A stretch of DNA of 64,000 nt from Chamaelirium japonicum. Lineage: Eukaryota; Streptophyta; Magnoliopsida; Liliales; Melanthiaceae. Under the pieces are notes generated by a model. The model did no database searches. It was not told the DNA's origin and was given only the letters and a program-made list of their open reading frames with translations. Both the position numbers and the translations under genes were made by a program. The stretch is taken from positions 88,510,697 through 88,574,696 of the forward strand of contig OX393551.1 of NCBI GenBank assembly GCA_947650365.1. The letters are read 5' to 3'. The first letter of the stretch is position 1; each line of letters begins with the position of its first letter. Shown piece after piece: positions 2,998-50,369 of the stretch.

Positions 2998-3165
2998 ACT
3001 GATAGCTCAGTTGATAAGACATATGCAACACATTACCTTGGTCAAGGGTTCCAATAAGATCTATAGAATTTTTCCTTCCACCCTGTTGTGACGAGCTTCT
3101 CTCTCATCTTAGTGGTGAGCTTTTCTACCTATGGGGTTATTTCAAATCGGGGTATTTCTTGTTGT
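2998..3165 (+). mobile_element. tRNA-derived SINE candidate
   Basis: The sequence carries a pol III internal promoter pair. An A-box-like TAGCTCAGTTGATAAGA (3003-3019) is followed by a B-box-like GGTTCCAATAA (3047-3057), at the spacing seen in tRNA genes and tRNA-derived plant SINEs. Downstream is about 100 bases of unrelated body. No cloverleaf can be folded beyond the D-arm-like part, so a functional tRNA gene is unlikely. Target duplications and a clear 3' tail were not found. A decayed tRNA pseudogene is the alternative. Confidence 0.5.
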
Positions 3166-8059: not shown

Positions 8060-10300
8060 GAGAAGAACCGCCTAGTTACAAAGTTCCATGATCAAATCTT
8101 TCGTCCCCGGCCTCAGATGGCAAGCCCAAAGGTGGATTAGCGACTTGGAGTGAGAGATCACATCCTCGCTTGTGCTCCTTTTGTTCTGGAAGGTCCGCTG
8201 GTTCCGCTCAAGCCAGATCACTCAACAAACACCGATGGCAAGTACATCCCAACCTTTGCGATCAGTACCGCGAAACCTTAGACGTCGCCAGGAACCCCAA
8301 AGAGAGTCCATCGACGATAGCAAAGAGGTCAGGTTCAGCTTGTCAAGGAAATGCCTTCAGACGTGCCTCGAGAACTCGCACCGCATCAGCAGATGATCAG
8401 TGAACTCCTATAAAACCCCGCAAAACGTACACGACGGATCCGACACCCCTAGGTGGTTGCGCTTCATCAGGTTAGTCTTTGTGAGAATACGATCCCTGGA
8501 AGCAAGTAACATTAATATCCACATCTTAAGGGGACATCCTGCCCGCCAAATGGCCTTAGTCGGAAGACTACGGACACTGCCGAAGTTGAGGAAACCATAC
8601 AGGCTCCTAACTGGGAATTCGCCAGAAGAGGTCTACCGCTATCCCGCTGTGTCTGGTTCCTCCGTCAAGGTCACTCTATTCAGGGCGTCTAGGAGATCAC
8701 CAAGCTCCCTCAGGTGCTCCGTCAGAAATGGTTCCATGAATCGTGGTCACCAAATCGTGACACCTTTGTGCACAGACGCTTGTGACCGCACAGTGGCCAT
8801 CCTGTTAGGAGCCAGCTTGAACAGGTGAGGAAACAAGCTGTGTAGAGGTATGTCCCCAGTGAAATGTCCTCACAGGAATGAATGAATCTTCGTTCCCCGT
8901 AGTTAGCCTAGATCCACAACGAAAAATAGAAGCCACTCGGGAGACCCCCCGCCAGAATATAGAAAAAGTTGTGAAAGTGCGAGATCTGAAGTTGAGAGGC
9001 GAGAAGTGCCGGAAGTACCTACTTACCACCACTCCCTTCTAGATGTCCCCCAGTCTATTATGAATTCTCCACCACCACTTGCCAAGCATCGCCTGATTGA
9101 AATCGTGCAGGTTGATGATTCTCAATCTATCTTGCTCCCTGGACTTGCAAGCATTACCCCAAGCAAGGAGAGGGTAATAGCCCGATGAGCCCATCGCACC
9201 GCGCCAAAGGAATTGCCTCCGGATTTTGTCAATCCGCATGGAAACCAACGCAGGCAGGGAGTAGAAGGATAGGAAATAGGAAGGAATTGCCGACATAATC
9301 GAGTTGATCAAAGTCATGCGTCCCCCAATGGACAGGTGATTCCCTTTCCAATGAGAGAGGCGTCGCTCTACCTTCTGAATCAGCTCCAGCCAAGACTCTT
9401 TTGGCAACTTCCTGTCCGAGATTGGCAATCTAAGGTATTTGAAGGGAAGAGAAGCTAGTTTGCACCCTAGGATCCCGACCAGGCTGTGTAAAAGGACCCT
9501 ATCCTCAACCAAAGCGTAGAGAACCGAATTCATGAAATTAATGAACTGGCCTGAAGCCATCTGGAAGCAAAGTAGTAACCCTTGAGAACCAGAATCTGTG
9601 CTGGGTCTGCCTGGAGGAAGAGCAGGGTGTCATTGATGAAATGAAGGCTTGAGACCTCCCAGGATTCCCCCCTGATCCCTGTAATCAATCCATTCCGCGC
9701 ATTGAGTTTGATGAGGGCATCGAAGACATCCACCACAAGGATGAAGAGGAAATGGGAGAGGGGGCCACCCTGTTTGACCCCCATACGCATCGAAAAAGCG
9801 TTGCCGCTACTGTTATTAATCAGCCATGAAATCTTGGATGAGGAAAGGCAACTCCAGATCCAATCTAACCAGCGCAAAGGGAAACCCTTGTACCGTAGAG
9901 TCATCATCAGGAATCCCCAGTCCAACTGGTTGAAAGCCTTCTCAAAGTCCAGCATAAGAAGTAATCCCTCTGAATGAGACTCCCTTAGGTGAAGGAGGAC
10001 CTCCTGAGCAGTTGTCATGTTGTTAAGGATGTTCCTGTCCTTGATGAGAAAGCCGACTGGGAAGGTCCAACAAGATCCAAGATAACCGCAGCCATCCAGG
10101 ACGCACTCACCTTCGCCACTGCCTTATAGATGCAGTTAGACAAACTGATAGGTCAGTAGTCCCGGATACTCTCAGACCTGTCCTTCTTAGGAATGAGAAT
10201 GATCCAAGATTGATTCAGGCATGTGAGGTCCACCTCTCCTACGAAGAAGTCTGACATGAAGCGCAGAAGGTCGTGCTTGAGGACTTCCCAATATCGTTGG
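8060..10300 (-). pseudogene. LINE copy A reverse transcriptase (ORF2 C-terminal half), broken
   Basis: Minus-strand fragments form an L1 reverse transcriptase. In order they are an N-terminal part with NNMTTAQEVLLHLRESHSEG and MLDFEKAFNQLDW (about 10130-9900), MGVKQGGPLS in the palm (near 9775), the catalytic box read as HFINDTLLF instead of the usual FADD (9629-9640), and a thumb region with LPFKYLRLPISDRKLP and LSHWKGNHLSIGGRMTLINS (9560-9300). A zinc-finger-like C-terminal portion trails to about 8400. Several stops and frameshifts are present, including between 9560 and 9530. The loss of the first catalytic Asp (to Asn) agrees with an inactive copy. Confidence 0.85.
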
Positions 10301-12169: not shown

Positions 12170-13436
12170 TAGAGGTCAACCGGTAGCGGGGGAGAGCAAT
12201 GATGAGACAGAGTCGATCCGGCTAGGGGAACAGGCCCTAGGCCAAGGATCCCTTCCCCAGATCATGAGCCACCCAGATCCGGAGAGGGGGAGGATGAAGA
12301 GAATTGGTAAGAGAGGAACATGCCAGATCTGGAGCAAGTATAGGTTCTGGCCAATGGAGATAAGTTGGTGCTTCAAAAGACGATGAAGGAAGTAGGTCTC
12401 CACAATGACCAAGAAGAAGGAGAGGAAACGAGCCCCCTCTAGGTCATACTCAGTCGAAATAACTGAGCCGAACTGGCCCGCCCTAGAGGAGAGGGTCACT
12501 GGATCCCAGGCATGATGAAAGAGCCCCAAAATCTTCAGCTTGACGGTCGCCAACGGTAGCCGGCCGACCAAACTGTAACCCGTCGTCCAGCACCCTACTT
12601 GGAGGGTAAGGCCTTCCAACTCAATAGGCCCGAGGGATAATAGGTCATGAAGAGGGTGGGCCAAAGGGAACAAAAACCGAAAGGTGTGCCCTTCGCCATC
12701 CATGGCCTAGATCGGCCACTACTAGAAGATCAGTAAAGAGTCGCCCCCCCTCTGCTGGGCACCCCAGCGCAAGAGAAGGGTGGCCGAGAGGGAAGCCAAA
12801 TTCGATTTCCCCATGAAAAGAGAGACCACCCCAACTCTAGGAAAGATGGGGGTCCCCGGCCCCAATGGGAAGACCTCGGTTTTGTCAAGATTAGGAAGGG
12901 GGGTAGAAGGAGATGAACCCAAAGGTCGATGCACCGACGGTATCGAAGACGAGGCCCTTGCCCCCCCAGCTAGCCTCACCAGACAGCAGTGAGCCATGTG
13001 CCCTAGTCCACGGTAGTAGTAGCACACCATGGAGTTTCGGCAAGAGGAAGCCATGTGGTCCTGGTCCCCGCAGCAAAAATAAGTACTACAAGGAAAGGGG
13101 GAGAACCTAGGGGGTGTTGGGAGCACGTGGGGGGCAGCCAATCTCTGAGTGGGCGGGACCTAGTCAGCGAAGGACATAAGGCTAGGGCAACAATGTAAGA
13201 TCGGAATCCAGGATCGAGTTGAGCGAATGGGGGAATAGACCGAGTAGGTGGTGGCCCCAAGGGAGCGATACCCTTCCCCTTCCCCTTCCCCATTAAATCC
13301 GCATGCCTCCCCGAGCGTCGATGATGTCTCCAGAAAGCTGCTCGTCCATGTAGACCTCCTTCGCGACCCTTGGGCTAGCTCTCCCAAGCCGTCGCCCCTT
13401 GCGGCCGCACGTCGGGCGACGCATCTGAGCAACCAC
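12170..13436 (-). pseudogene. LINE copy A ORF1 (CCHC nucleic-acid-binding protein), broken and split
   Basis: ORF1 of plant L1 elements encodes an RNA-binding protein. Two CCHC knuckles are visible on the minus strand near 13085-12985. They read YFCCGDQDHMASSC and CYYYRGLGHMAHCC, each with one cysteine changed to tyrosine, as G-to-A decay would give. A following region (12703-12300) with ILGLFHHAWDPVTL and GSVISTEYDLEGARF resembles the DUF4283-type domain. The 5' end lies beyond the gypsy insertion: an ATG at 27271-27273 opens a frame that reads through SEEELCG to the insertion point. Stops are present. Confidence 0.65.
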
Positions 13437-16400
13437 TGTAACGACCGACATTTCAGGATGTTTTTGCCAGAACAAAACAGTTATATATAATATTATTTTA
13501 ATATATTGGCGGTGATATTTTTAGTTTTACTTGAACGGGACCAGGCAGTGGGTCCCGGGTACGAGTCGTTGGGCGGCAATTGAGGTGTAGTCACAAGCAC
13601 CTGAGCACGTGTATCGAGGCGAGTAACAAACAATATTTTTTTATTATTTATTTCATTATGGCGGGTCTATCGGACCCGACGATGTTCGCAAGCCGGCGCG
13701 TCTCGACGTGAGTCGAGGTCGAGTCAAGCGCAGCACGGGTAAAAAAAAAAAAAAACCAGAGAAAAAATAAAGAGAAAGAAGAAAGAAAGAGAAAATATAT
13801 ATATATATAATAAATAAATAAAAAACTAATAAACTAAAAACATAAACCTAAAACCCATCCCCAACCCAACCCCCAAACCCGACCCCAAACTCGACCCGTT
13901 CTAACTCTCTTCTCTCCCATCTCTCTCTTCTCTCAGACCTCTCTCTCTCTCTCTCTTCTCTCAAATCTGACTCTCTTCGGATTCCTCCATCCCCCTCTAT
14001 ACCGCCGCCCCTTTTTCCCCTTTTAAAACCCAGACCCAGCCCGACCCCCTCACCCCTTCTCTGATTCCTTTCTCCCCCCTTCCCCAGTCCGACCCTCTCC
14101 TCTCTCTGATCTCTTTTCTCTCTTACTCTCCGATCTCCCTCTCTATCTCTGATTTCCTCTCTCTTTCTACGGCCTGCGCGTGACAGTTGGTGCCGGAGAA
14201 GAATAGCCGGCCGAAGGAGGAGCCACCGCCGAAGCATACCGGCATCAAAGAGGAGGACACACCGAAGCCGGGAAGAGCCACAGCCGGTCGGAGCTGCCGA
14301 AGCCGATGACCCCGGCACTAGGTCGGCCTTTCCCCCTTCCTCTGTTTTTGTTTCTCTTTTTGTTCTGTGCTGTGATAATCGTCGAGACCCCTCCCCCACT
14401 GTGACCTGCACGACCATGGCCATCGGCCATGTGGCCGGTGGCTGTGCAGCCGACGAAGCCGACCCTGTGCTGGTGGCATTTTTGTGGACCCTATCGACCC
14501 CACCCCCGTGGCTTTTACTGTGGTTGCAGCCATGGCTGTCGGCCCGGTGACCGGCAGTTGTGGAACCAAAGGCGCCCGACCAAGCCCGGCCAAACACCCG
14601 GTGGCAGTTAGCCCCGATGATCTCATGCCAAGTTGCGGCTTGGCACACCAACCCCGACCTCCCCATGATGTTGATTTAGTCCATTAGCCACACTAGAGGT
14701 TAGCGGGCCCGATCTCCTCTGGTGATGCTCGTATCAAGGTTGAGGATACCGATGCGGGTCCAAACACCTTACGAAGTTGTTGCATACAAGACCGACCCTT
14801 TTAGCGGCAACGAGGTGCTACTTAGCAACCTAGGATGGTCACTAGTGCGATTCCCGTACAAACACGTCCTTTGGCAAAGCAAGCTGATCGTGATCGGCTT
14901 TGCCGATTCTGTCATCGACCGATACGGTCACGACCGTTTGGCCGAATCATTGCTATTAGACCTTAGTGTGACACATGCGTCAGCAATGCCGACTAACCAA
15001 GACAGTACCTTTGGTGCATCATTTTGCTTGCCAATAGACCGGCGTTCGATGACGCATAAATTCTCGACTCGGCCAACTCAGGCCTAAGCCAACGATATTT
15101 TAGTAGCATTTAATAACCATAGACTCGCTGGTATGTTTGGCAGTTAGTGGGCACGTGGACCTAGTCAGAAACGAAGCGGAGGGCGCCTAGCAGCATCAGC
15201 CCGAGCATACTTTCTAGGTGACACTACATGTTGTTTAGATAATTAACTATGCTGTTATAGAACTTAAGGGTAGGTGTCCATAACACTGCATGCGGGTCCC
15301 GTCGGACATCGTCGCATGTGGTCGAGTGGACCCCGCCTTGCATGCGTAGTCGCGAGTCCGGTGACGCATGCTTAATAATATAATTAAATAATAAATTTTC
15401 TGATTGCTTGGACACCGCAAGTAGGAATTCCCTAAAGGTTAGAAATTAATAATTAAATAATAATTATCGGGCTCATTCTCCTGGATGGAGTGTGGACACC
15501 CTGGCACACGGGATTACGGGCGAGAGTAAATTTTTATAGTTATTGTGATGCATGGGTTGTGAGCGCGGTGTGGATCCCGAGCTAAAACATCGAAATCACT
15601 TTATTATTATAATCGTCTGATATTTTATTATGTGGAAAGATTCGGACCCCGTGCGCGCAAGGGTCGTGAACCACCCTGCGCGTGCAGCCGAAGATCAGTA
15701 GGCTAGGGGGTCACGGGCAGAGATTGTGGTAAAGCCAATAGGTAGTGCCCTCGAAGAGGGATTGGCCTAGCAATCCTGTCCCGGGGTAGTTGAAGCCCCC
15801 AAGGAAAGCAAGTTGGGCGGTAGAGCTCCACCGTGAAAGACGAAAAATCCTTTATGATCATATGGGTGACTTTGCGCATGGTGTCAGAGTATGCGCAGCG
15901 GGAGAGTTGGCCCTCTATATCGAAATAAAAGGCCCTATAGTAATGCCCGACCGGGGGCAGGATGAACAAAATATCTGGGGTTCACATTGAGTGTGTTAAA
16001 CGTTATTAATTCTAAAATAGTATTCTTGTTAACCTAGTGACAGTAGGTATTGCATGAGAATATAGACATTGCATGGACACTTAGGACGTGATTGATAATA
16101 TAGTTGGACAACTAGGCTAATTAGTAAACTGTTTATAAATACTGGCGTCACTAATTACCTAGGCAGTTAGCTTGTCACTAACCGTTTATTTAGATAATCT
16201 CCAAATTCATTTTGGGGGCTACTCATTCCCACGAGTAGGCTCTTCTGCAGGTTAGGAGACTCAGGGGTAGCCACAACACGAGGCCAGCGGCGGAGTTAAG
16301 ACGGCGGTGGAGTTTTAGATTACAGTATGTTATGTAATAGTCAACTTCATTCTGGCAGTGTAATCGTACTAGATTAGTTTAGTGTATGTTATCAGTGGTA

Positions 16401-16884
16401 ATGATACAGCTGTATTCTTTTTTGGTAGGCCTCTCCTCAAGGCCCCAAGCCTAGGGTAGCTTACTATGAAAATCTAAGTTGTAAAGTGAACTAATTGACT
16501 AGCTCATTAGATAGGATATGTGAACCAGTGCCCGAGTGCTAGAGAGCGGACGAGGCTACTCGGCTCGCCGTTAGAGGCTTGAGCCTCGTGCTCCCTTAAG
16601 AGGGACTTTTGTCTGCATGTGGGGAACCGACAAGCCACACATGCTGAGAGGATAGCCTGGTTGAGGGTCGAGCGTGATCATCTCCTTGTCGATAAAACTA
16701 TATCTCTATATTTTCTTTCAAAATAAAAATATTTTCATAAAAAGTATGTTTTAAAATATTCCTTGAGAGAGTAGAAGCCCTGTGAGAAACCCTAATTGGA
16801 GTAGACAGTTGACCAAACCCTAAAACCCTTGGTTTTTCTCAATTCACACCCCAGGGATCGGTTCTGGATTTCTGGGGCGTGACA
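13437..16884 (+). repeat. gypsy 5' LTR
   Basis: 3448 bp from TGTAACGACC to GGGCGTGACA. It contains a long C/T-rich stretch around 13900-14170, typical of a promoter/leader. It matches the 3' LTR along its whole length apart from the CACTA insertion. Minus-strand frames such as 14666-13848 are translations of the C/T-rich tract and are not genes. Confidence 0.95.
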
Positions 16885-16886
16885 GC

Positions 16887-16898
16887 TGGTATCAGAGC
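16887..16898 (+). other. gypsy primer-binding site (tRNA-iMet)
   Basis: TGGTATCAGAGC, complementary to the 3' end of plant initiator methionine tRNA, lies two bases after the 5' LTR. Confidence 0.95.
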
Positions 16899-16982
16899 CT
16901 AGGGATATGTTCCTAGTAGTTTCTAGTTAGGTCTAGAGTCTTATTAGGAGGTTAGCGTTAGACTAATCCCTTCTCTTTTCAG

Positions 16983-18150
16983 ATGGTGGGTATCAGAAGT
17001 GGTAATGGTACTAACAACGGAGCAGGATCGTCTGCTGGGCCAAACAGCACGGCGATGATGATGGAGATGCTCCAGGGGATGGCTGCCATGGTCCAGCAGC
17101 TGTAGACTGTTGTTGCCCAGCAGCAGACCGAGCTAGCTCAGGCTGCCCTTGCCCAAGCCCAGGCTCATCAGCAGGCCGAGGGCGAGCGACAGAGGAAATT
17201 GCTGAAGGACTTTAAGGCAATGGGACCACCGAGCTTTAGGGGTGAGCCAGACCCCTTGGAGGCCGATCGATGGTTCCAGCAGACGGAGAAGATACTGAAC
17301 GCGTTGGGCATCACCAACGACAAGAAAGTCACCTTTGCCTTATACCAATTAGAGGCGGAGGTAGACTTCTAGTGGTAGACAGTTCAGCGCACCCGAGCAG
17401 CAGATCGAGGAGTGATCACTTGGCCAGAGTTCAAAGAGATCTTTTGGAAGAAGTTCTTTTCGGTTATCGTGCAGAACCGGATAGAGATGGAGTTTCTGGC
17501 GCTCTACCAGGGGTCTCGTACTATGTCGCAGTATGAAGCCAAATTCTCGGAGCTTGCGAGGTATGCTCCTCACCAGCTGGCGACCGATAGAAGGAGGGCT
17601 ATGCGCTTTGAGCATGGCTTGAACCTGGTGATTAGGGGTAGGGTTGCTGCCTTCTTAGGGCAATCCTATGAGGAGTTGGTCAACCGGTCCCTGACGGTAG
17701 AGCAGGAGTTGAAGGAGCCCCATGCTATCTTGGAGAAGCGGAGTGGCAGCAGTCGCAATGGCCCATCGGTTTAAAAGAGGTTCAGATCCACGGAGGCTCG
17801 ACCCCCGCCTCGTCAGCCTCAATATTTCCATGGTCATCTAGTTCCTGGACCCCAGAGGCGTGGTTGTTTCCAGTGCGGCTCGCTTGAGCATCTGAAGTGG
17901 AGCTACCCACAGCTTCGTCGGTAGCCACTTCTACCAGCTCCACCTCTCAGGCCTGCACTGCCGGCACCACCTATGCAACAGCAGAGGCCCCCGCAGAGAG
18001 TTCAGCAGCAGCAACGTCCTCCCTAGCCACCGCAGCAGAGGCCTTTCCCCCGTCAGGGCGGAGGAGGCAATCAGGCCCAGGGCAGGGCATACTTGTTGGT
18101 CGGTTAAGACTCAGAGGCTTCTGGGGGAGCGATCGAAGGTAACCGTGAAC
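16983..18150 (+). pseudogene. gypsy gag, broken
   Basis: The capsid/nucleocapsid frame starts with ATG at 16983. Recognisable parts are a Q/A-rich coiled-coil-like N-terminus, a PPSFRGEPDPLEADRWF-like retrotransposon gag core (17226-17275; the source reads PPSFRGEPDPLEADRWFQQ), a second half with TWPEFKEIFWKKFF and GSRTMSQYEAKFSELARYAP (17420-17575), and a CCHC zinc knuckle at 17865-17906 whose last cysteine is now tyrosine. The first in-frame stop is TAG at 17103. Further stops follow near 17370 and at 17772. A P/Q/A-rich linker leads to the protease. Confidence 0.88.
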
Positions 18151-18189
18151 TTAGTAGTTCAATTCTTAGTTATAGCTGTCTTACTGCCT

Positions 18190-18540
18190 TTGATTCTTTT
18201 GAGACTTGTTAGGATTAGTTTTGGTCATAACTAGCTTAGCCTCTTATATTCTTCTGCTATTGTTAGGCACCCTCCCTGTCTTCTCGACCCTAGCCCATGT
18301 TCTTTTCGACAGTGGGTCCACGCATTCCTATATTGTCCCTAGTTTTTTCAAAACTTTGGGACTGGAGTCTGCCGAGACTGCATCATTCTTGTTGGAGATA
18401 GGGAGGTCTCGGCTGACCTGATAATCTTAGACTTGGGAGGAGTGGATGTGTTGCTCGGGATGGACTGGATGTCGGCTTACCACGTCACCCTCGACTGCTT
18501 CTCGAGGAAGGTCACCTTCTCACCTCCAGAGAGCGAGGTC
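18190..18540 (+). pseudogene. gypsy aspartic protease, broken
   Basis: The retropepsin active-site loop reads LFDSGSTHSYI, with the catalytic Asp codon at 18308-18310. A following frame has DVLLGMDWMSAYHVTLDC (18440-18500), the conserved GMDWL-like segment of Ty3/gypsy proteases. A stop at about 18421 and a frame change separate the two halves. Confidence 0.85.
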
Positions 18541-18769
18541 TTCTACTTTATAGAAGACAAGCAGAAGGTTCTATGCTCGGTACCGCTGCAGCAGAACACC
18601 CTCACCTTACTAGCGCAGCTACTGAGCAGGGATCGAGATGGGAACCCAGTAGTACTCCCGTTGATAGTTTGTGAGCTCCCAGATTCTTTCCAGATGAGCT
18701 TCCAGGCTTACCTCCACCTCGGGAGGTCGAGTTTGCTATAGATCTGGTACCGGGAGTAGCACCGGTCTC

Positions 18770-20010
18770 GATTGCTCTGTACCGGATGGCTCCTGCTGAG
18801 CTGAAGGAGCTGAAGACTTAGTTGGAGGAGTTGCTCGATAGAGGCTTCATTCGTCCTAGCACATCTCCTTGGGGAGCCCCAGTCCTCTTTGCTCAGAAGA
18901 AGGATAGGACGAAGAGGCTTTGCATTGATTATCGCAAGCTGAATAGCCTCATAATAAATAACAAGTACCCGTTGCCACGGATAGAGGATCTGTTTGATCA
19001 GCTGAAGGGTGCTTGTTGCTTCTCGAAGATTCATCTGAGGACTGGATATCACCAGCTGGCTGTGAGGGTAGGGGATATTTCGAAGACAGTATTTCGGACA
19101 CGATACGAGCACTATGAGTTCTTGGTCATGCCATTCGGTCTGACGAACGCTCCTGTAGCATTTATGGATCTGATGAACCGCGTCTTCAGCATGTTCTTGG
19201 ATAGATTTGTGGTGGTATTTATGGACGATGTCCTCATTTTCTCCAAGACGGAGGAAGATCATCGGGAGTACCTGAGCGCAGTATTGCAGACCCCAAGAGA
19301 TCACCAACTGTATGCCAAGCTCAGTAAGTGTGAGTTCTGGATGCAGGAGGTGAAGTTCCTCAAACACGTTGTCTCGAAGGAAGGTATCTCGGTGGATCCA
19401 GCGAAGATAGAAGCCGTTATGGATTGGGAGCAGCCAAGGAATGTCTTCAAGATCAGAAGTTTCTTGGGGCTAGCAGGCTACTATCGACGCTTTGTAGAGG
19501 GATTCTCACGTCTAGCTATACCTCTCGCCCGTCTGACCAAGAAGGGTGTCAAGTTTGAGTGGTCGAAAGATTGTGAGAAGTCCTTCCGAGAGTTGAAGCG
19601 GTGTCTCACTTCGTCCCCAGTACTGACGATTCCAGCTAGCGGCAAGGGCTATGTGGTCTTTACTGATGCCTCGCTGATGGGGATTGGAGCAGTTCTGATG
19701 TAGAACGGTAGAGTGGTTGCATACGCCTCAAGACAGTTGAAGACTCACTAAAAGAATTATCCCACCTATGATCTGGAGTTAGTAGCGGTGGTCTTCGGCT
19801 TAAATATTTGGAGGCATTACATGTACGGTAAGGAGTTTGAGATGTATTGCGATCACAAGAGCCTGCGGTACATCGCGAGTTAGAAGGATCTGAACATGCG
19901 GCAGAGGAGGTGGATCGAAGTCCTGAAGGACTTCAACTATTCGCTCTTTTACCATCCTGGTAAAGCGAATGTTGTTGCAGATGCCCTGAGCCGGAAGTCC
20001 CGTAGCCAGC
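18770..20010 (+). pseudogene. gypsy reverse transcriptase-RNase H, broken
   Basis: The RT begins after a TAG at about 18820. It shows [38 protein letters not shown] and the catalytic box [11 protein letters not shown] (Asp codons at 19224-19229). The other catalytic aspartate, normally in FSKIDLRSGYHQ, is histidine here (codon 19032-19034). RNase H follows as [15 protein letters not shown], then stops at 19700, 19750 and 19880, then [10 protein letters not shown] and [15 protein letters not shown] (to about 20000). Most stops sit where a glutamine CAG is expected. The copy is therefore dead both by stops and by active-site loss. Confidence 0.93.
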
Positions 20011-20129
20011 TTACTAGATTATTGACAGATCGACATGGCTTTTTGGCTACGATAGAAGGCTTTGATTTATGGGTTCGGTGGGAGCCTTCTCATACTGTAT
20101 TGCGCACCATGTGAGTACTGCCCAGCCTA

Positions 20130-21570
20130 CTTCATAAGGTGATTGCAGTACAGAGGATGGATTCAAAATTGGAGAAGATAAGGGCACGGTGCAATAGTGG
20201 GGAGTCTGTTCCAGACTGGTTAGTTGATGCTGATGGAGGTTTGAGATTCCAGAGGAGGTTATGTCTTTCCACTGATGAGAAGGTTCGAGAGGAGGTGCTA
20301 TCAGAGGCTTATCGATCTAGATTCTTGTTGCACCCTGGCAGCACCAAGATGTAGCACGACTTGAGGAGGCAGTTCTGGTGGAAGGGCATGAAGCGAGATG
20401 TGGCCGCCTTCGTGTCCAGATGTTTGACTTGTCAGCAAGTCAAGGCTGAGCACCAAAGACCGGCTGGATTGCTACAGCTGCTTCCAGTAGTTGAGTGGAA
20501 ATGGGAGCACATCACGATAGATTTTGTTTCGGGATTGCCTCTGACCCGGAATAAACATGACTCAGTTTGGGTGATCGTGGATCGATTGATGAAGTCAGTG
20601 CACTTTCTTCTGGTGCGGACAACGATGACATCCATCGACCGAGCGAAGCTATATATAAGGGAAATTGTCAAGCTGCATGGAGTTCCAGTTTCCATTGTCT
20701 CGGATCGAGATCCTCGATTCATTTCTCATTTTTGGGAGAGCCTGAAGATAGCCTTAGGGACTGAGCTCAGTTTTAGCACAGCCTTCCACCCTCAAATCGA
20801 TGGTCAGTCAGAGAGGATGATTCAGATTCTTGAGGATATGTTGCGGGCATGTTCTGTGGATTTTGAAGGAATTGGGAGAAGTATCTACCTCTTGTGGAGT
20901 TCGCTTACAATAATAGCCACCAAGCCAGTATCGGCATGGCCCCCTATGTGGCCTTGTACGGGAGGCCGTGTCGATCACCTATTTATTGGGCGGAGGTAGA
21001 AGAGTGGAGCCTTTTGGGACCAGAGCTTGTTCAGGAAACAACAAAGAAGATCCAACTGATCAGGGAACGACTTCGAGCGGCGCAGAGTCGACAGAAGTGC
21101 TATGCTGATGTGCGTCGACACCCGCTCGAGTTCACCGTTGGAGATCATGTCTTCTTGAAGGTTTTCCCTCGTCGAGGCATCACGAGATTTGGGAAGAAAG
21201 GGAAGTTGGTTCTGAGATTCATCGGCCCCTTCGAGATTTTGGAGAGAGTTGGTGAGATAGCATATCGGCTGGCGCTACCTCCACAGCTCTCTAGTGTCCA
21301 CGGTGTCTTCCACGTATCGATGCTTCGGAGGTACGAGCCAGACCTGTCCCACGTACTGGATTGGCAGGACCTGGCACTCAGTCCAAACGTGTCCTACGAG
21401 GAGCGATCGATCAGTATTCTAACTGGAGAGGATCGAGTGCTTCGTACGAAGACCAACCCCATAATGAGAGTGTAGTGGCAGCACTGCAGTGAGGAGGAAG
21501 CTACTTGGGAGCTTGAGTCCGCGATGCGATCCTGTACCCATCTTTGTTTGATGACTAGTGTTATTTAATT
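20130..21570 (+). pseudogene. gypsy integrase with chromodomain, broken
   Basis: The HHCC zinc region ends in RCLTCQQVKAEHQ (20420-20455). The catalytic core has D at 20520-20522 (ITIDFVSGLP), D at 20703-20705 (VSDRDPRFIS) and E at 20811-20813 (GQSERMIQ), so the DDE triad is still encoded. A 1-nt deletion near 20870 shifts the frame. The downstream frame (20894-21475) has VEFAYNNSHQASIGMAPYVA and the GPF/Y-type segment RFIGPFEILERVG. A chromodomain-like tail (about 21395-21535) has an in-frame TAG at 21474. The chromodomain is thought to guide integration to chromatin. Confidence 0.93.
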
Positions 21571-21587
21571 TTCGAGACGAAAATTTT

Positions 21588-21603
21588 ATTAAGGTGGGTA
21601 GGA
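21588..21603 (+). other. gypsy polypurine tract
   Basis: TAAGGTGGGTAGGA lies directly before the 3' LTR, at the expected position for priming plus-strand synthesis. Confidence 0.85.
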
Positions 21604-22885
21604 TGTAACGACCGGCATTTCAGGGTGTTTTTGCCCAGAACAAAACAGTTCTATATAATATTATTTTAATATATTGGCGGTGATATTTTTAGTTATGCTT
21701 GAGTAGGACCAGGTAGTGGGTCCCGGGTAAGAGTCATTGGGTGGCAATTGAGGTGTAGTCACGAGCACCTGAGCATATGCATCGAGGCGAGTCACGAATG
21801 ATATTTTTTTATTATTTATTTCATTATGGAGGGTCTATCGGACCCGGCGATGTTCGCAAGCCTCCACGTCTCGACGTGAGTCGAGGTCGAGTCAAGCGTG
21901 ACGCGGGCAAAAAAAAAAAAAGAGAAAGAAGAAAGAAAGAGAAAAAAAATATAATAAATAAATAAAAAACTAATAAACTAAAAACCTAAACCTAAAACCC
22001 ATCCCCAACCCAACCCCCAAACCCGACCCCAAACCCGACCCGTTCTAACTCTCTTCTCTCCCATCTCTCTCTTCTCTCAGATCTCTCTCTCTCTCTCTCT
22101 TCTCTCAAATCTCACTCTCTCTTCGGATTCCTCCATCCCTCTCTGTACCGCTGCCCCTTTTTCCCCTTTTAAAACCCAGACCCAGCCCGACCCCCTCACC
22201 CCTTCTCTGATTCCTCTCTCCCCCCTTCCCCAGTCCGACCCTCACCTCTCTCTGATCTCTCTTCTCTCTTTCTCTCCGATCTCCCTCTCACTACAAAAAA
22301 AAACAGTTTTTACCGACGGAATATTTCCGTCGGTAAAATCAATTATCCGTCGGTAAAGAATTTTAGCGACGGACCAAATTTTCGTAGGTAGTCTATCGGG
22401 GAAAAAGGCGCCGGGAAAAATCGGCAACGGACAAAATATTTCCGTCGGTATTAATAATTAATACCGACGGATATTTTGCATCTGTCGGTAATATATTAAT
22501 ATTTAATTAAAAATATAATAGATTACTGCCGACGGTAATTTATATTCCGTCGGTAATATGCAAGCTTATTACCGACGGCCACATTAATTACCGTCGGTAA
22601 TAATGTGCATATTACCGACGAAATAATAATTTCCGTCGGCAATATGTATATAATTAAAAAAATAAAATATATTATTACCGACAAAATTTATATTATCCGT
22701 CAATAAAAACACATGAATTTTTTTAAAAAAATTACTAAAATAATATTATTTAATTCATGTGATTTACAAAACACATCTACCCATTTGACCAGATCCATCC
22801 CTTCAACATCATTCTTAGACCCCCATATAACCCTAAATTATGGTTGGAACCCTAGATTAGGGGAAGCAATGGGTGAGGGCACTTG

Positions 22886-22888
<3 letters not shown>

Positions 22889-22933
<45 letters not shown>
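22889..22933. repeat. (GA)n microsatellite within the CACTA core
   Basis: Perfect GA repeat of about 45 bases, 250 bases beyond the 3' end of the captured H2B frame. Confidence 0.95.
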
Positions 22934-22934
<1 letters not shown>

Positions 22935-23188
22935 GAGAGATCAACAGAACACAAAGCAAAGAGTTTATAGTGAAAAAATAAGAACTAAAGTTGCATAAAC
23001 CAAAACATTAAAAAAAAAAAAAGCAGCAATTAAGTGTTCAAAAAAGAAAACCACAAATCAACAAGACAATCCTTCCTTCAAATTTACATCAATTTGGCAT
23101 TCATCAACCCAAATCCGATCCCAAAAGCCTGCATATTCCAAAAACCCTAGAGATCAGAAACCCTAGATCGCCGTCACAGCACCAGGAT

Positions 23189-23644
23189 CTAGGCACTAGT
23201 GAACTTGGTAACGGCCTTGGTGCTCTCGGAGACGGCGTGCTTGGCGAGCTCGCCGGGGAGGACGAGGTGGACGGAGGTCTAGATCACCCGGGATGTGATG
23301 GTCGACTTCTTGTTGTAGCGAGCAAGGCGGCCGGCCTCCTGCGCCAGCTTCTCGAAGATGTCTTTGATGAAGCTGTTCATCCCGATGACCGGGTGGACTT
23401 GCTTCAGCACCTTGAAGATGTAGATCTTGTACATCTCGATCGACTTCTTCTTCTTCTTCTTGTCGCCGGCGCCGGCGAAGGCGCCCTCCTTGGAAGGCGG
23501 CAGCTTCTTCCCCGCCTTGGGCTTCTTCTCGGCCGGAGCCTTCTCCACCACAGACTTCTTCTCCTCCTCCGCCGGTTTCTCGGTGGCCGGCTTCTTCTCC
23601 GCGGGCTTCCTCTCTGGATAGGGTTGAACCAGAGAGGGAAGCAA
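23189..23644 (-). pseudogene. captured histone H2B pseudogene
   Basis: Minus-strand H2B copy. The lysine/proline/alanine-rich tail has [16 protein letters not shown]. The histone fold gives [32 protein letters not shown] and [10 protein letters not shown], followed by LPGELAKHAVSE and KAVTKFTSA before a TAG at 23189-23191. Three defects are visible. The normal ATG start is replaced by unrelated codons, leaving only TTG at 23642-23644. About eight residues of the L1-alpha2 region between the VHP motif and MNSF are deleted. The conserved glutamine after TSRVI is a TAG (about 23280). H2B normally packs DNA in the nucleosome; this copy could not. Confidence 0.93.
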
Positions 23645-23780
23645 TCCTTATAAAGCGGCGGAGAAGGAATCTGATTGGATGAAATTGTGTGGTTCGGATA
23701 GGTGAGCTGGCACTTAGATCTACTGTTCGATTAGATCGAAACAGAAAGGGATCGGCGACCGGTCGTGATTGATCGCAGGG
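23645..23780 (-). promoter_or_regulatory. captured H2B promoter region
   Basis: Upstream of the H2B frame on the minus strand are a TATA-like CTTTATAAGG (rc of 23645-23655 region) and a CCAAT box (CATCCAATCAG, rc of about 23668-23680), spaced as in plant histone promoters. The TTACCGACGG repeats begin again near 23782, so host-derived sequence reaches at least that point. Confidence 0.6.
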
Positions 23781-23966
23781 TGTTTACCGACGGACCGTAT
23801 ATATTCCGTCGGTAAAAATTAGTATTATACCGACGGATACTCTCCTCCAGTCGGTAATTTAAATGGTAAAAATAAATTAAAATTTTTATATTAATATTAC
23901 CGACGGAATACATCTGTATTGTTGGTAATATTAGTTATACCGACGGATATATAGTTACCGTCGGTA

Positions 23967-24327
23967 AAAATAAACGAAAAAAAAAATAGCAAAATATAAA
24001 ATATATTATTAGCGACGGACTTTTTCATTACCGTCGGTAAAAATAAACGAAAAAAAAATAGCAAAATATAAAATATATTATTAGCGACGGACTTTTTCAT
24101 TACCGTCGGTAATAATAAACGAAAAAAAAATAGCAAAATATAAAATATATTATTAGCGACGGACTTTTTCATTACCTTCGGTAAAAATAAACGAAAAAAA
24201 AAAAGAAAAATATAAAATATATTATTAGCGACGGACATTTTCATTACCGTCGGTAAAAATAAACGAAAAAAAATAGCAAAATATAAAATATATTATTAGC
24301 GACGGACTTTTTCATTACCGTCGGTAA
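23967..24327. repeat. 72-bp tandem repeat in the CACTA right arm
   Basis: The word AGCGACGG recurs at 24011, 24083, 24155, 24227 and 24298, giving periods of 72, 72, 72 and 71. Each unit ends with an inverted pair AGCGACGG...CCGTCGGT around TTTTTCATTA. Five units are present. The minus-strand phenylalanine-rich ORF is a repeat artefact. Confidence 0.95.
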
Positions 24328-27300
24328 AGGTATATTACCGACGGATAATATATAACTGTCGGTAATAAATATGAAAAAAAAAAATTAAAAAAATCAAAGT
24401 CTTATTACCGACGGAAATAATTGTTATTGTCGGTAAAATATATATTATTACCGACAGTAATAGAAATATCCGTCGGTAAAAAATCTATTTCTTGTAGTGT
24501 CTCTATCTCTGATTTCCTCTCTCTCTTTCTACGGCCTGCGCGTGACAGTCGGTACCGGAGAAGGATAGCCGGCCGAAGGAGGAGCCACCGCCGAAGCATA
24601 CTGACGCCGGGGAGGAGGATGCACCGAAGCCGGGAAGAGCCGCAGCCGGTCGGAGCTGCTAAAGTCGACGACCCCGGCAATAGGTCGGCCTTTCCCCCTT
24701 GCACTATTTTTTTTCTCTTTTTGTTCTGTGCTGTGGTAACCGCCGAGACCCCTCCCCCACTGTGACCTGCGCAACCTTGGCTATCAACCATGTGGCGGGT
24801 GGCCGTGTAGCCGGCGAAGCCGACCCGGTGCTGGCGGTATTTTTGTGGACCCTATCAACCCCACCCCCGTAGCTTTTATGTGGTTGTAGCCATGGCTGCC
24901 AGCCCGGTGGCCGGTGAACCAAAGGCGCCCGACCAAGCCCGGCCAAACACCCGGTCGCAGTTAGCCCTGATGATCTCACGCCAAGTTACGGCTTGGCACA
25001 CCAACCCCGACCTCCCCATGACGTTGATTTAGCACATGAGCCACACTAGATGTTAGCGGGCCCGATCTCCTCGGGTCACGCTCGTATCAAGGTTGAGGAT
25101 ACCGATGCGGGTCCAAACACCTTACGAAGGTGATGCGCACGAGACCGACCCTTTTAGCGGCAACGAGGTAGTACTTAGCAACCTAGGATGGTCACTAGTG
25201 TGATTCCCGTGCAAACACATCCTTTGGCAAAGCAAGCCGATCGTGATCGGCTTTGCCAATTCCGTCATCGACCGACACGGTCACGACCGTTTGGCCGAAT
25301 TATTGCTATTCGACCTTAGTGTGACACATACGTCAGCAATGCTGACTAACCAAGACGGTACCTTTGGTGCATCGTTTTGCATGCCAGTAGACCGGCGTCC
25401 GATGACGCATAAATTCTCAACTCGGCCAACTCAGGCCTAAGCCAACGATATTTTAGTAGCACTTAATGACCATAGGCCCGCTGGTATATTTGGCAGTTAG
25501 TGGGCACGTGGACCGAGTCAGAGACAGAGTGGAGGGCGTCGAGCAGCATCAGCCCGAGCACACTTTCCAGGTGACACTACACGCTGTTTAGATAATTAAC
25601 TATGCTGTTATAAAACTTAAGGGTAGGTGTCCATAATGCTGCATGAGGGTCCCGCTGGACATCGTCGCATGTGGTCGAGTGGACCCCACCTTGCAAGCGG
25701 AGTCGTGAGTCTGGTGATGCATGCTTAATAATATAATTAAATAATAAATTTTCTGATTGGTTGGACATCGTAAGTAGGAATTTCCATAAGGTTAGAAATT
25801 AATAATTAAATAATAATTATCGGGCTTATTCTCCTGGATGGAGTGTGGAGACCCTGGCACACGGGATTACGGGCGAGAGTAAATTTTTAGAGTTATTGTG
25901 ATGCATGGGTTGTGAGCGCGGTGCGGATCCCGGGGTAAAACATCAAAATCACTTTATTATTATAATTGTGTGATATTTTATCATGTAGAAATATTCAGAC
26001 CCCATGCGCGTAAGGGCCGTGAACCACCCTGCGTGCACAGCCAAAGATCAGTAGGCTAAGGGGTCACGGGTAGGGATTGTGGTAAAGCCAATAGGTGGTG
26101 CCCTCAAAGAGGGATTGATCTAGCAATCCTGTCCTGGGATAGTTGAAGCCCCCAAGGAAAGTAAGTTGGGCGGTAGAGCTCCACCGTGAAAGACGAAAAA
26201 CCCCTTATAATCATATAGGTGACTTTGCGCATGGTGTCAGAGTATACGCGGCGAGAGAGTTGGCCCTCTACATCAAAATAAAAGGCCTTATAGTAATGCC
26301 CGACCGGAGGCAGGATGAACAAAATATCCGGGGTTCACATTGAGTGTGTTAAACTTTATTAATTCTAAAATAGTATTCTTGTTAACCTAGTGACAGTAGG
26401 AATTGCATGAGAATGTAGACATTGCATGGACACTTAGGACGTGATTGAGAATATAGTTGGACAACTAGGCTAATCAGTAAACTGTTTATAAATACTGACG
26501 TTATTAATTACCTAAGCAGTGAGCTTGTCACTAGCCATTTATTTGGCTAATCTCCCAATTCATTTTGGGGGCTACTCATTCCCACGAATAGGCTCTTCTG
26601 CAGGTTTGGAGACTCAGGGGTAGCTGCAACACGAGACCAGCAGCGGAGTTAAGACAGTGGTGGAGTTTTATATTGCAGTATGTCATATAGTAGTCAACTT
26701 TCTTCTGGCAGTGTAATCGTACGAGATTGGTTTAGTGTATGTTATCAGTGGCAATGATACAACTGTATTCTTTTTGGGTAGGCCTCTCCTCAAGGCCCCA
26801 AGCCTAGGGTAGCTCACTATGAAAATTTAAGTTGTAAAGTGAACTAATTTACTAGCTCATTAGATATTATATGTGAACCAGTGCCCGAGTGCTAGAGAGC
26901 GGGCGAGGCTACTCGGCTCGCCTTTAGAGGCTTGAGTCTCATGCTCCCTTAAGAGGGACTTCTTTCAGCATGTGGGGCACCGGCAGGTCGCACATGCTGA
27001 GAGGATAGCCCGGTTAAAGGTCGAGCGTGATCATCTCCCTGTCGATAAAACTGTATCTCAATATTTTCTTTCAAAATAAAAATCTTTTCGTAAAAAGTAA
27101 GTTTTAAAATATTCCTTGAGAGAGTAGAAGCCCTGTGAGAAACTCTAATTGGAGTAAACAGTTGACCAAACCCTAAAACCCTTGGTTTTTCTCAATTCAC
27201 ACCCCAGTGATCGGTTCCGAATTTCTGGGGCGTGACAACCACATAATTCCTCCTCACTGAGACCCATCCCCATTGCTTTTTTTCTTCTCTTAGAACAACT

Positions 27301-42994: not shown

Positions 42995-45671
42995 ATGCCT
43001 CTCTCCGAAGTTCCTCAGGCGACAACAAGAGGGAACCTCGAATCGGCACAATCTAGGATGACCAATTGCTCACCTGACCTAACTCCATTAATGTAAGTCG
43101 GCGTGCTCTTGATCCTAACCTTCGCTTCTGTTGAATTTTATCTGCATTTTTTTTCCCAATTCCTTTCGATAATCGATACTATTGTAGCTTAGCTTTCGAT
43201 ATATTGACCTTTGTGTTCTTCTAAACAAAAATCCCATCCATGGTTGGTTTAATGAAGGCCGGATCACGGGTGCGTCGAGCTACTGTGGGAGAATGGTCAG
43301 GTCGTGATGCAGGGCCAGTCCAATAGACCTAACAAGCGCTCCTTCACCAACACCTTGTCCTCCCACACGGGCAGATTTCAGGAGAGGGACAACAGAGGTG
43401 CTGTTATTCCAAAGGCTGGGCACTTTGGAGCGGATTCGATGGTAAATGACTTTCCGCACTCTGTGCCTTCGGGGAACATTGGATTAGATGCCCAGGATGA
43501 TGAGATGGTCCCCTGGCTGAATTACTCGATCGAGGATTCTCTTCAGACCGATTACTGCTCCGAGTTCTTATCCGAATTCTCAGGCTTCAATCCGAATTCT
43601 CTGTCGACTCATAACCACACGATGCCTGCCTATCGAAGCAGTAATGTGGAACATGGGCATGCTTCTAGAGCTCCTACGGGAGGTTCAGAGGCTAGTAGAA
43701 TTAGGACAAGCCAGTTGTTCCAGTTGCCACAACAATGCCAGAGTTCGGTGCCGCTTACCAAGTCGAGAGCTGCAGATTTTGGTGTTGCAGGTAACAGTAG
43801 TACCCACCAAGGCTGTGGGAATTTACAGGACAAAAATTTGCAGAAGCAAGCTGTGGGGACCTCCAAGCCGCCGCATCCGAGTAGCGGAATGGGTTTGATG
43901 AACTTTCCCCATTTCTCGAGACCCGCTGCTCGGGTTAAGTCCAATCTCCAGAGCGTTGATAGGTTGAGGAGCCATGAGAAGGCATCGACTGCTGCCTTTA
44001 GTAAACCCATGGAGTCGACGGTGATCGACTCTACTAGTGGTTTGAAGAGTCTAACTGTGTCAGTTCCACCCAAGATGGAATTGAGATCATCGGACAAACC
44101 TTCTCCTCATGAGGTGGTCTCTGTCGAGAAGTCCGAGGCTATTTGTCAGGAAGATACATCTCGGAATAACATCAATACTAGATCGCCCGATCACATAAAT
44201 CATCAGAGCTCAAGTGCGGTGGCGAGTGTGGCCATAGCGAGGCATGAAGTTGAGAAGGGGCCTGAAGCAGTTGTTGCATCTTCTTCTGTATGCTCGGTAA
44301 ATAGTGCCGGTGAAGAATCAAATGAACCTAAACACATAACTAAGAGGAAGAATCGAGAAGGAGATGAATCAGGGTACCATAGCGAGGTGGGTGGAAGTGT
44401 TTCTCTAGTTCATATCCTGTATGTTGGGCACTCAATTCTTCTATTAGATCACTTCAACTTTGAATCCTATTCGACCTTTATTTAGGACCTTGAAGACGAG
44501 TCGGTGGGCTTAAAGAAATCTACCACCGGGCGAGTCACAAGCGCAAAGAGAGGCCGTGCTGCAGAAGTTCATAATTTATCAGAAAGAGTGAGTCCAAAAT
44601 ACATCATCTCGGTTTAGTTGTTTCTTAGTTTAGACTTTAATGTCTCATACCGGGTAGCCGATTTCTGCACAAATGGCAGAGACGAAGGGACCGGATCAAC
44701 GAGAAAATGCGTGCTCTGCAAGAGCTTATACCCAACTGTAACAAGGTAACATCTAATCTTTTTCTAGCATGGGCATGAATCATGTGGTTGCAATGAAACG
44801 ATTTACCTGATTTGGAACTACACTCTTTGAAGGTGGACAAAGCTTCCATGCTTGACGAGGCCATCGAGTATCTTAAAACCCTTCAATTACAGGTTCAGGT
44901 AACATCTTTCTCATCCCATGAGGCTTTCATTAATTTGGTACTTATTGTGATCATAAGTCAAAAATTCTCGGTTCGTTATGCAGATCATGTCAATGGGAAG
45001 CGGGTTATGCATGCCTCCGATGATGCTACCAGCGGGGATGCAAAACCTACGCCCGCACCCAATGGCTCATTTCTCACCAATGGGTCTAAATATGGGAATG
45101 GGGATGGGGATGGGGATGGGATTGGGTTACGGGATGGGAATGCTTGACATGAATGGCCCGCCAGGCTGCCAGTTGATTCCAGTACCACCCATGCATGGGC
45201 CACAATTCACATGCCCCTCGATGCCGATGGCATCCAACTTGCATGCGATGCAGGGATCTACAGGTCTTCAGATGTTTGGGATCCCTCGGCAGAATGTACC
45301 GATGCCTCATGCATCACCATTTGGTTCATTGCCCGGCCTTTCTGAAAAGGTGAATTCGGCACCGGGGGCAACAACGAGTCCATTACTAGTTGCTGATATT
45401 GCCCCGTCTTCAGATTCCAAGAATCAAGAACAACAAAATGTAAATTTAGAGACATCTACGCAGGTATAATAAATTTATCCTTGAGCTGTATTTCTCTTTC
45501 TATTAAAATAAGTGAACCTTAGTATTTTGATTGGTAAACAAGTTTGTTTGCTCTTCTAAGCTCTAGACACCAAAATTAATATGTTCTTACTGCCAGGCAG
45601 CGAAAGAATCCTTTAAGCAGTCTACTCGAGTGCAAATGGGCAACCAAACACTGCATGTTGGTCGAAATTGA
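42995..45671 (+). CDS. phytochrome-interacting factor (bHLH), PIF3/PIL15-like
   Basis: Nuclear bHLH transcription factor of light signalling that binds G-/E-boxes and is bound by active phytochrome. Seven coding exons, all with GT-AG introns, give one open 671-codon frame: 42995-43092, 43258-44386, 44486-44587, 44680-44745, 44833-44898, 44984-45463 and 45597-45671 (TGA). Residues 39-47 (VELLWENGQ) are the active-phytochrome-B-binding motif, and [10 protein letters not shown] at 113-122 is another family motif. The bHLH lies at about 434-487, with the DNA-reading H438, E442 and R446 of HNLSERRRRDR, a loop at PNCNKVDK, and a helix ending [10 protein letters not shown] methionine/glycine-rich stretch follows. 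The start MPLSE matches the PIF3 N-terminus. If the last intron were retained, the protein would end two residues into it (V, stop). I see no defect. Confidence 0.95.
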
Positions 45672-47436: not shown

Positions 47437-48600
47437 GTGCACCAACTCGAGATTAACACACCCGCATCACGGAATCCTTCAACGATGATCAGATCTTCGG
47501 GAGGCGTCTCCCCACACACCGATCTCCTCTTCTCTACTCAAACGGACTGGACTCCGTGGCCGGCATCGATCCGAAACGAGCTTGAGGGCCAGTTCCTCTA
47601 CAATCACCTCTTCCACACCGTCTTGCCCTTCCAAAACATCAATGCCCTCTACATATCTGGGACGCCGACATCATCCATCAGGAATGCCGACAACACTACG
47701 TCCAAGACCGCCTCCACGTCGACGGTTCTTTCCACCGTTGCAAATCTTCAGGGCGTGACAGCTCGCTGGTCTTATGAGGATGCACATGTCAAGGCCTTCC
47801 TTGTCACCTCGGTAGACACCTCCCTACACAAGGGACTAGTTACCTTTCCGACTGCATGTGCTATCTGGATGCATCTTTGCGGTCTCTTTGTTCAGTCGGA
47901 CGGTGCACATGAGGCTCATCTCCTGCGAGAGATGATGACAGCCTAGCAGGGCACCCGACAGGTGGAGGCATACTACACTTTCATGGGGGCCCTCTAGCAG
48001 GAGCTCGAGCAGATGGAGCCTAAACCCAATGCCTCGGCATTAGAGGTCCAACTGTTCTGGGAACATCGAAAGGTGCACTTTCTTCTTGTCGGAATCGTGT
48101 CGGCTCTTCAGCCTCTAGCGGGGCAACTGTTATACCGAAACCCCTTTCCTTGTCTTACCGAGGTCGTCGCCGCTCTCCTCTCTGAGCAGTCCTGGCTGAG
48201 AGCATCGACACCACCCCACCTCCTCCCACTCCGGCTACTACTACCGGCCACGAGAGGGTTCTTGCCACCGCTTCTCGCTCCTTTGCTCCATCTTAGACAC
48301 CGCCATCGGTTCCTCCTTACTCTAGTGTCCGCTCAGGTAGTCGTGGTGGATGCTCTGGTGGTCGTGACATACCACCCTACTGCACTTATTGTCCCAAGCA
48401 GAGGCATTTGGTCGAGATGTGTTGGACTCTTCATCCTGAGAAGCGTACAGGCCCTCTTGGTCAAGGAAAATCTGTTTGTGATTCTCCATCTACTCATGCT
48501 GCACTTGTTGAGCCCGCCTCTATTGTTGCTCTTACTCCACAGCAGCTTCAGTTGTTTAAGTAGTTTCAATAATTACAGCAGCACCAGATGAGCTCCGGCG
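47437..48600 (+). pseudogene. copia gag, broken
   Basis: The main frame 47437-47946 carries a copia gag core, with EDAHVKAFLVTSVDTSL and FPTACAIWMHL followed by SDGAHEAHLLREMM. TAG stops follow at 47944 and 47996. A second frame brings the CCHC knuckle CTYCPKQRHLVEMC (about 48380-48425). A frame change lies between about 48090 and 48370. Gag normally forms the particle around the RNA. Confidence 0.85.
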
Positions 48601-48639
48601 CCTCCTCGTCGTCCGTACCGCTTACCGTCTACTCGACCC

Positions 48640-49990
48640 ACTCTGGTACTCTCTTTCCTTAGGTCCTGGACTCTGGTGCCTCCCAACATCTCACCCATGA
48701 CCTATCTGTTTTTACTTCTCTTTGCCCCGCCACCATCCCAGGCCTCCACACTGCGAATGGATCTCATCTCTCCATCTTCCAGTGTGGCTCCATCTACCCC
48801 TTGTCTGATCCGTCCGATCGCCTCACCTTACCCACTGTTTATCATTCCCCTAACCTATGCATGAACCTTGTCTTTGTCTCTACTCTTTGTGATGTTGGTC
48901 TGACCGTATCCTTTTTTGACTCTGGTTGTATTGTGCCGGATCCTCGCTCGGGCAAGACGATTGGAACTGATCAAAGAGTGGGCGGTCTCTACTACCTTGA
49001 GTCTCTTCACGTGCCTCCTTTTTCTATCAGTTTTTGTGGTATTAGTTCGTCTGCGGTCGACTTGTGGCACAAACAATTAGGTCATGTGTCCAAGCTCCGA
49101 CTTAAAAGCCTATTTCAATCCGGGGCTTTAGGTCGTACTCCCTTTTCTTCTCTTTCCCATTGTACAAGTTGTCAGCTTGCTAAACTCACAGTCTCCCCCT
49201 TTCGTTTTAGTGTGTCTCGTTCTGTTGCTCTATTTGACCTTGTTCATTTGGACATTTGGTGGCCCTTGCCCATATCATCTATGAAAGGCTATTTCTATTA
49301 TATTTGTTTCATTGATGGTTTTTCTCGCTATACATGAGTTTATTTACTTTGTCATCGCTCTGAGGTTTTCTCCGTATGTACTGCCTTCACCAATATAATC
49401 CAAACTCAGTTTCGCACTAGGATCAAAACCTTCAGTCTGACTGTGCTCGTGAGTTTCTATCTATCGATATACGGTCTCTCCTCAAGTCTCATAGTACCCT
49501 CTTTCAGCAGTTTTGTCCGGATACTCACAAACATAATAGTGTTGCTGAGCATAAGTATCGTCACATTCTTGAGATTGCCCGTTCTCTTCCCCTCTCCTCC
49601 TTTATGCCTCGCTCTTTCTAGGCTGAAGCCATCCTCACCTCTGTCAATCTAATCAACATTACTCCTTCTACCTATCTATTTGGTTCCTCCCATCATGAGC
49701 ATCTCTTCTCGTCTCTTTCTTCCTATGACATGCTTTGTGTTTTTGGCTGCACTTGTTTTGTACTCTTGGCACCTCACGAATGCAACAAACTATCTCCTAA
49801 GATAGCAAAATGCATCCTTTTGGATCTCAGTCTCGAGCACAAAGATTACCGTTGCTATGACCTTGTTGGTCATCGCATTCGCCTAGCCAAGCATGTCTCA
49901 TTCTTCGAGGATGTTCCATTTTATTCTCCCTCTTCTCAGGATCGCCATTTCCTCTCCCCCGAGTCTACTAATCTCGAGTCTTCACCAATT
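48640..49990 (+). pseudogene. copia protease and integrase, broken
   Basis: The protease active site reads VLDSGASQHLTH (about 48664-48700). The integrase N-terminal zinc region is DLWHKQLGHVSKLRL with HCTSCQLAK (49060-49190). The first catalytic Asp is in LVHLDIWWPLP (about 49236-49268). A TGA at 49336 follows GFSRYT. The second Asp is in a shifted frame as SDCAREFLSID (about 49436), followed by NSVAEHKYRHILEIAR, where the glutamate of the DDE triad sits. The C-terminal part (49730-50017) has VFGCTCFVLL and KCILLDLSLEHKDYRCYD. Confidence 0.88.
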
Positions 49991-50369
49991 GTCTATCCTT
50001 CATCCCCTATCGAGTAACACAGACTTCACCCCTATCCCCCTCCCCTAGTTGACTCCCACCACCTTGGCTAATGTGTACCCTCTCCTAAGGACCCGACCCC
50101 TCCCTCCACACCCTCCACATCCACTTCTATCGCCCTTCCTCTTGAGACCGAGCTTCCCCCAGATTCTCCTCTCTCTTCACCACCGATTCCTACACCTCCG
50201 ACTGAAGATCCTGTCACAGTACCAGAGTGACACTATCCTCTGCGTGACTGTCGTCCACTTAACATGCTTAATTTGTTTGTTGTTGCCTTCTCTTATGCTC
50301 CCTCCTACCAGGTTTTTCTTTCTGCTATTCACACCACTCCTTTCGAGCCACACTCTTATCGTGAGGCAG

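Follow-up and report, generated by a model that had tools for sequence, protein, structure and literature searches.

Has a CACTA transposon captured a core histone gene? An earlier note, made from the letters of the stretch of DNA analysed here (64 kb, hereafter the window), had described a transposase-less CACTA element whose core holds a minus-strand copy of a histone H2B gene together with its promoter, and had called such a capture unusual. Our analysis leads us to conclude, with a probability of about 0.9, that the locus is a Pack-CACTA element carrying a captured piece of an H2B gene and that this piece has decayed to a pseudogene. The element itself is inserted into one LTR, the 3' one, of a gypsy retrotransposon. 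The features on which this reading relies are collected in Table 1.

Table 1. Features of the CACTA element, its cargo and its host retrotransposon (positions in the window)
Feature	Position	Strand	Basis
5' LTR of the Ty3/gypsy retrotransposon, 3448 bp, serving as empty site	13437..16884	+	LTR alignment
3' LTR of the Ty3/gypsy retrotransposon, interrupted by the CACTA element	21604..27237	+	LTR alignment
TSD TCT, left copy	22286..22288		TCT flanks both ends; single TCT in the empty 5' LTR
CACTA element, complete, non-autonomous, 2211 bp	22289..24499		Exact ends and empty site
Left end: terminal inverted repeat plus a subterminal region with 10 motifs; inner border approximate	22289..22709	+	Motif scan
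Captured DNA 3' of the H2B stop: H2B 3' flank or second captured piece	22710..23188		Motif-free; three frames without Pfam match
H2B pseudogene, from a Glu of the N-terminal tail to the terminal TAG (23191-23189)	23189..23614 (about)	-	PDB, Pfam, alignment
Premature TAG; Gln in all 16 monocot H2Bs aligned	23279..23281	-	Alignment
In-frame deletion of 8 codons in the first half of the histone fold (junction)	23380..23381	-	Alignment
TATA-like motif TATAA(G), some 35 bases 5' of the first conserved codon	23648..23652	-	Motif search
CCAAT motif, 5' of the TATA-like motif	23674..23678	-	Motif search
Right subterminal region, 13 motifs, 72-bp array, and right terminal inverted repeat	23783..24499	-	Motif and tandem-repeat scan
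TSD TCT, right copy	24500..24502		Flank comparison with the empty 5' LTR

The CACTA element is a single insertion in the 3' LTR of a gypsy retrotransposon

The element is bounded by CACTACAA ends, and both of its termini are exact: CACTACAAAAAA on the left (22289-22300, plus strand) and CACTACAAGAAA on the right (24499-24488, minus strand). Allowing at most one mismatch, CACTACAARAAA has five matches in the 64-kb window, the two exact ones being the ends of the element; 100 shuffles gave a mean of 0.67 matches, and none reached five. The three other matches, each with one mismatch, lie near 3155, near 63164 and at 54434-54423. The last was considered as the border of a second CACTA element and rejected, as no run of CCGACGG motifs lies nearby: none of the seven CCGACGG/CCGTCGG sites located outside the element falls there. 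A BLAST search revealed no second copy of the element in the 64-kb window, the matches being confined to the element itself and to simple repeats.

The host of the insertion is a Ty3/gypsy retrotransposon (13437-27237) whose internal part matches gag, reverse transcriptase and integrase, whose two LTRs both start with TGTAA and finish with TGACA, and which is flanked by the 5-bp TSD ACCAC (13432-13436 and 27238-27242). Its LTRs are unusually long, and GCTGGTATCAGAGCC, just after the 5' LTR, resembles a tRNA-Met primer site. Once the CACTA element and one TCT had been removed, the two LTRs could be aligned: of the 3415 sites compared, 265 differ (200 transitions and 65 transversions), which corresponds to a K2P distance of 0.0829, and there are 38 gap columns. 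In the 5' LTR, the insertion point reads CCC-TCT-CTATC: TCT is present once, the CACTA element is absent, and the flanking LTR sequence runs continuously across the site. The single TCT and the lack of an element in the sister LTR show that the CACTA element was inserted as a single unit, later than the retrotransposon.

This empty site also disposes of the idea that two unrelated elements supplied the two ends around an H2B copy already in place. Such an origin could be read into the unlike length and repeat content of the two ends, a 72-bp tandem array (5.2 copies, 23955-24328) being found on the right side only. It is refuted by the TCT on both sides and by the single TCT of the element-free sister LTR, and it also conflicts with the continuity of the LTR sequence across the site and with the presence of the same subterminal motif on both sides, so that we give it practically no credit. 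The earlier note had declared that its reading would fall if the H2B copy were found here without CACTA termini, or if the terminal motifs belonged to two unrelated elements; what we found instead is one unit, at the borders that it had proposed.

Anatomy of the element and of its cargo

The element displays CACTA-type terminal inverted repeats, a 3-bp TSD, and subterminal repeats in both direct and inverted orientation, as expected of a member of the CACTA superfamily; direct and inverted subterminal repeats extending over several hundred bases are given as a trait of CACTA (En/Spm) elements in the accessible text of PMC8978399. More specifically, 23 of the 30 CCGACGG/CCGTCGG motifs of the window lie within the element, 10 on the left (22313-22633) and 13 on the right (23787-24470), while the motif scan of the element found none at 22640-23786. 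The resulting motif-free stretch, approximately 22710-23782, marks a cargo of about 1.07 kb.

The H2B copy occupies part of this cargo, on the minus strand. The best PDB match of its frame is an Arabidopsis H2B (8j90_D, E 1.6e-36), and Pfam assigns the frame to the Histone family (PF00125) with a score of 34.4 bits (cut-off 26.4). As the earlier note had proposed, the N-terminal tail, the histone fold and the C-terminus are all represented; the original C-terminus is kept and ends with TAG. The H2B stop is followed by a portion of cargo that includes a (GA)n run (22889-22940) and that may be a second captured piece. This portion also contains, on the H2B strand, leader sequence of the 'AGGGTTTC/CTAGGGTTCC' type.

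No transposase was detected: a Pfam search of the H2B frame and of seven further frames returned only Histone, in the H2B frame. Of the 19 stop-to-stop frames of at least 50 aa that overlap the element, the scan covered the H2B frame and six more, either completely or partially, and a small transposase remnant might lie in one of the remaining frames. The core thus appears transposase-less, as had been claimed, and the combination of a host coding sequence between CACTA ends with the lack of a transposase domain in the scanned frames is that of a Pack-CACTA element. Searches for non-coding RNAs (at the gathering score) and for tRNAs gave nothing in the 64-kb window.

Lesions of the H2B pseudogene

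To describe the lesions, we aligned the copy with 16 monocot H2Bs chosen among the best 120 of 7960 matches. These 16 proteins share 118 invariant columns, of which the copy lacks 11 and carries substitutions in 11 of the other 107. The missing residues include the start methionine and seven of the eight residues lost from the fold, which read ISSKAMGI or ISSKAMSI in the relatives; one of the substitutions converts a glutamine codon into a TAG stop. No ATG compensates for the missing start, as the frame already has a stop within the 13 codons that precede the first conserved one. The three lesions listed in the earlier note, namely the loss of the ATG, the gap of eight residues in the fold and the TAG in place of a conserved glutamine, are therefore borne out by the alignment. 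No H2B protein sharing the 8-residue gap was found among the best 120 of 7960 matches, in which identity is at most 83% throughout.

An imperfect inverted repeat, GCTTCCCTCTCTGG ... CCAGAGAGGAAGC, lies at the site of the missing ATG (23612-23645, minus strand). Its DNA fold has a z-score of -2.79, with 3 of 200 shuffles being equally stable, and it may be the scar of a foldback repair that deleted the start codon.

The extent of decay can be compared with the time offered by the LTR pair. Assuming uniform neutral rates and a parent with all the invariant residues, simulated neutral drift at 0.0415 changes per site, i.e. half of the LTR-LTR distance, altered a mean of 9.2 of the 107 codons (central 95%, 4-15), to be compared with the 11 observed. 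Under the same assumptions, the mean fell to 6.7 at 0.03 changes per site (P = 0.066 for at least 11) and to 4.4 at 0.02 (P = 0.005). Since these two runs rarely reach 11, either the CACTA element inserted soon after the retrotransposon or the decay had already begun before; should the insertion be far more recent than the retrotransposon, some of the decay predates it. Taking the smallest codon change in each case, C-to-T or G-to-A accounts for 6 of the 11 substitutions, which fits the decay expected of methylated transposon DNA. Altogether, the H2B copy is most likely a dead passenger with no sign of remaining function, and the cargo most likely serves neither the host nor the element.

A different fate would be that the copy is still expressed and gives rise to antisense or small RNAs that target the mRNAs of true H2B genes. 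The H2B copy and the LTR are read in opposite directions, so that read-through from the LTR would yield H2B antisense RNA. For maize Helitrons, Pack-MULEs and Sireviruses, the accessible text of PMC13317346 describes how siRNAs produced from captured pieces act on the donor genes. The same text interprets the silencing of essential donor genes as selected against, and we regard a regulatory role of this kind as very improbable compared with that of a dead passenger.

Upstream motifs and the route of capture

The earlier note had also placed TATA and CCAAT boxes upstream of the H2B copy and concluded that the gene had been captured with its promoter. Both motifs are indeed present; the conclusion, in turn, hinges on two short motifs, and a CCAAT followed 10-70 bases further on by a TATAA also turned up in 0.9% of 20000 shuffles that preserved the composition of the 153-base upstream stretch. 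Furthermore, none of four motifs that we took as histone-type promoter motifs (CGGATC, ACGTCA, CCGTCG and TGACG) was found at 23600-23790 on the minus strand, which counts against a complete histone promoter. The TATAA and CCAAT motifs are therefore suggestive, not proof, of a captured H2B promoter.

The same motifs bear on whether the gene was captured as DNA or as RNA. Plant H2B genes are intronless as a rule, so missing introns do not tell whether the copy was made from DNA or from RNA. This leaves room for a processed H2B retrocopy having landed in a pre-existing CACTA element, in which case no gene capture by CACTA would have taken place, and the sense strand does contain a 7-base A run, some 470 bases beyond the H2B stop. 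An mRNA copy, however, would not carry the upstream TATA and CCAAT motifs; sense-strand A runs of at least eight bases are absent between the H2B stop and the left subterminal region; and no TSD around the H2B piece stood out among the repeats listed for the window. The presence of the upstream motifs and the lack of a longer A run favor capture at the DNA level, and we consider a retrocopy improbable, albeit the least improbable of the alternatives.

In the capture model that we favor, (i) a transposase-less element with intact CACTA ends, or its ancestor, would have acquired some 1.07 kb of host DNA comprising nearly the whole H2B gene and an upstream stretch, presumably at the DNA level; (ii) a transposase encoded elsewhere in the genome would have moved the element in trans; (iii) the element inserted into the 3' LTR of the older Ty3/gypsy retrotransposon, duplicating TCT; and (iv) the H2B copy, under no protein-level constraint, would have decayed to a pseudogene, probably after its capture. 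The uptake itself may have relied on neighbouring insertions followed by aberrant excision, the route proposed in the accessible portions of PMC13317346 and PMC8903248.

Relation to known cases of gene capture

Elements of this type are well described. According to the accessible text of PMC8903248, Pack-CACTA (Pack-TYPE) elements of Arabidopsis, rice and maize likewise combine CACTACAA ends, a TSD, the lack of a transposase and host coding DNA; compared with the elements presented there, the cargo differs here in being a core histone gene. A further trait asked of Pack-CACTA elements is a genomic copy number above one, since packFinder clusters elements and drops singletons. On wheat chromosome 3B, PMC4290129 counts, in its accessible part, 140 CACTA capture events involving 145 genes, of which more than half (all but 46%) are pseudogenes, and estimates that the wheat genome holds about 2500 CACTA-captured genes or pseudogenes. 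Those captures resemble ours in that small genes or gene pieces reside in CACTA elements, but they belong to larger families and have known parents, and histones are not named in that part of the article. Tgm-Express1 of soybean (PMC1947982) and the Tpn1 family of Ipomoea nil (PMC5105172) are also presented, in the text available for each, as non-autonomous CACTA elements with host gene pieces inside; Tgm-Express1 contains five gene fragments with introns and is spliced into chimeric transcripts.

A counterpart with respect to the cargo comes from fungi. The accessible text of PMC6710886 describes hAT transposons of Dothideomycetes that captured a core histone, H3, the copies of which were inactivated. 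The superfamily, the histone and the host are different, the H3 copies number in the hundreds in Pseudocercospora fijiensis, and the H3 gene was captured as a transcript or retrocopy and inactivated by RIP. In the literature searched, which lies mostly outside subscription journals, we found no report of an H2B gene inside a CACTA element, nor of a Pack-MULE with histone H2B, and no H2B capture is described in the accessible text of PMC7602945. The word unusual used in the earlier note thus applies at most to the cargo, given that gene capture by CACTA elements is common and that capture of histone H3 has been published. What we describe is an ordinary Pack-CACTA element whose cargo, though unusual, is dead; it adds an example to a well-described and common process. 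A more ambitious view, in which this would be the first core histone gene in a plant CACTA element, equipped with a cell-cycle promoter and belonging to an amplified family that tunes the expression of true H2B genes through antisense or small RNAs or exploits the protection of essential genes from silencing, strikes us as highly unlikely.

The locus provides a clean, fully bounded case of gene capture by a CACTA element, in which the LTR pair acts as a built-in clock and an empty site is available as well. Should the family include members whose H2B is intact, these would make it possible to test whether transposons carrying essential genes escape silencing.

Other features of the window

The nearest real host gene is probably the one suggested by the frames at 43304-45469, which resemble a PHYTOCHROME INTERACTING FACTOR-LIKE 15 gene. 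The comparison covered 43304-44485, for which the closest named proteins are those of oil palm (48% identity), coconut and asparagus, the best matches being 'lgn' entries (53%). These matches point to a monocot as the host, while H2B is too strongly conserved to identify the plant. A fragment of a non-LTR-type reverse transcriptase (Pfam RVT_1) lies close to the gypsy element, at 9039-10018 on the minus strand, and remains of a Ty1/copia retrotransposon with gag and pre-integrase matches are found at 47437-51864. Finally, long degenerate tandem arrays rich in CGATCGG extend over 55234-57786, the repeat unit measuring about 120 or 171-173 bases.
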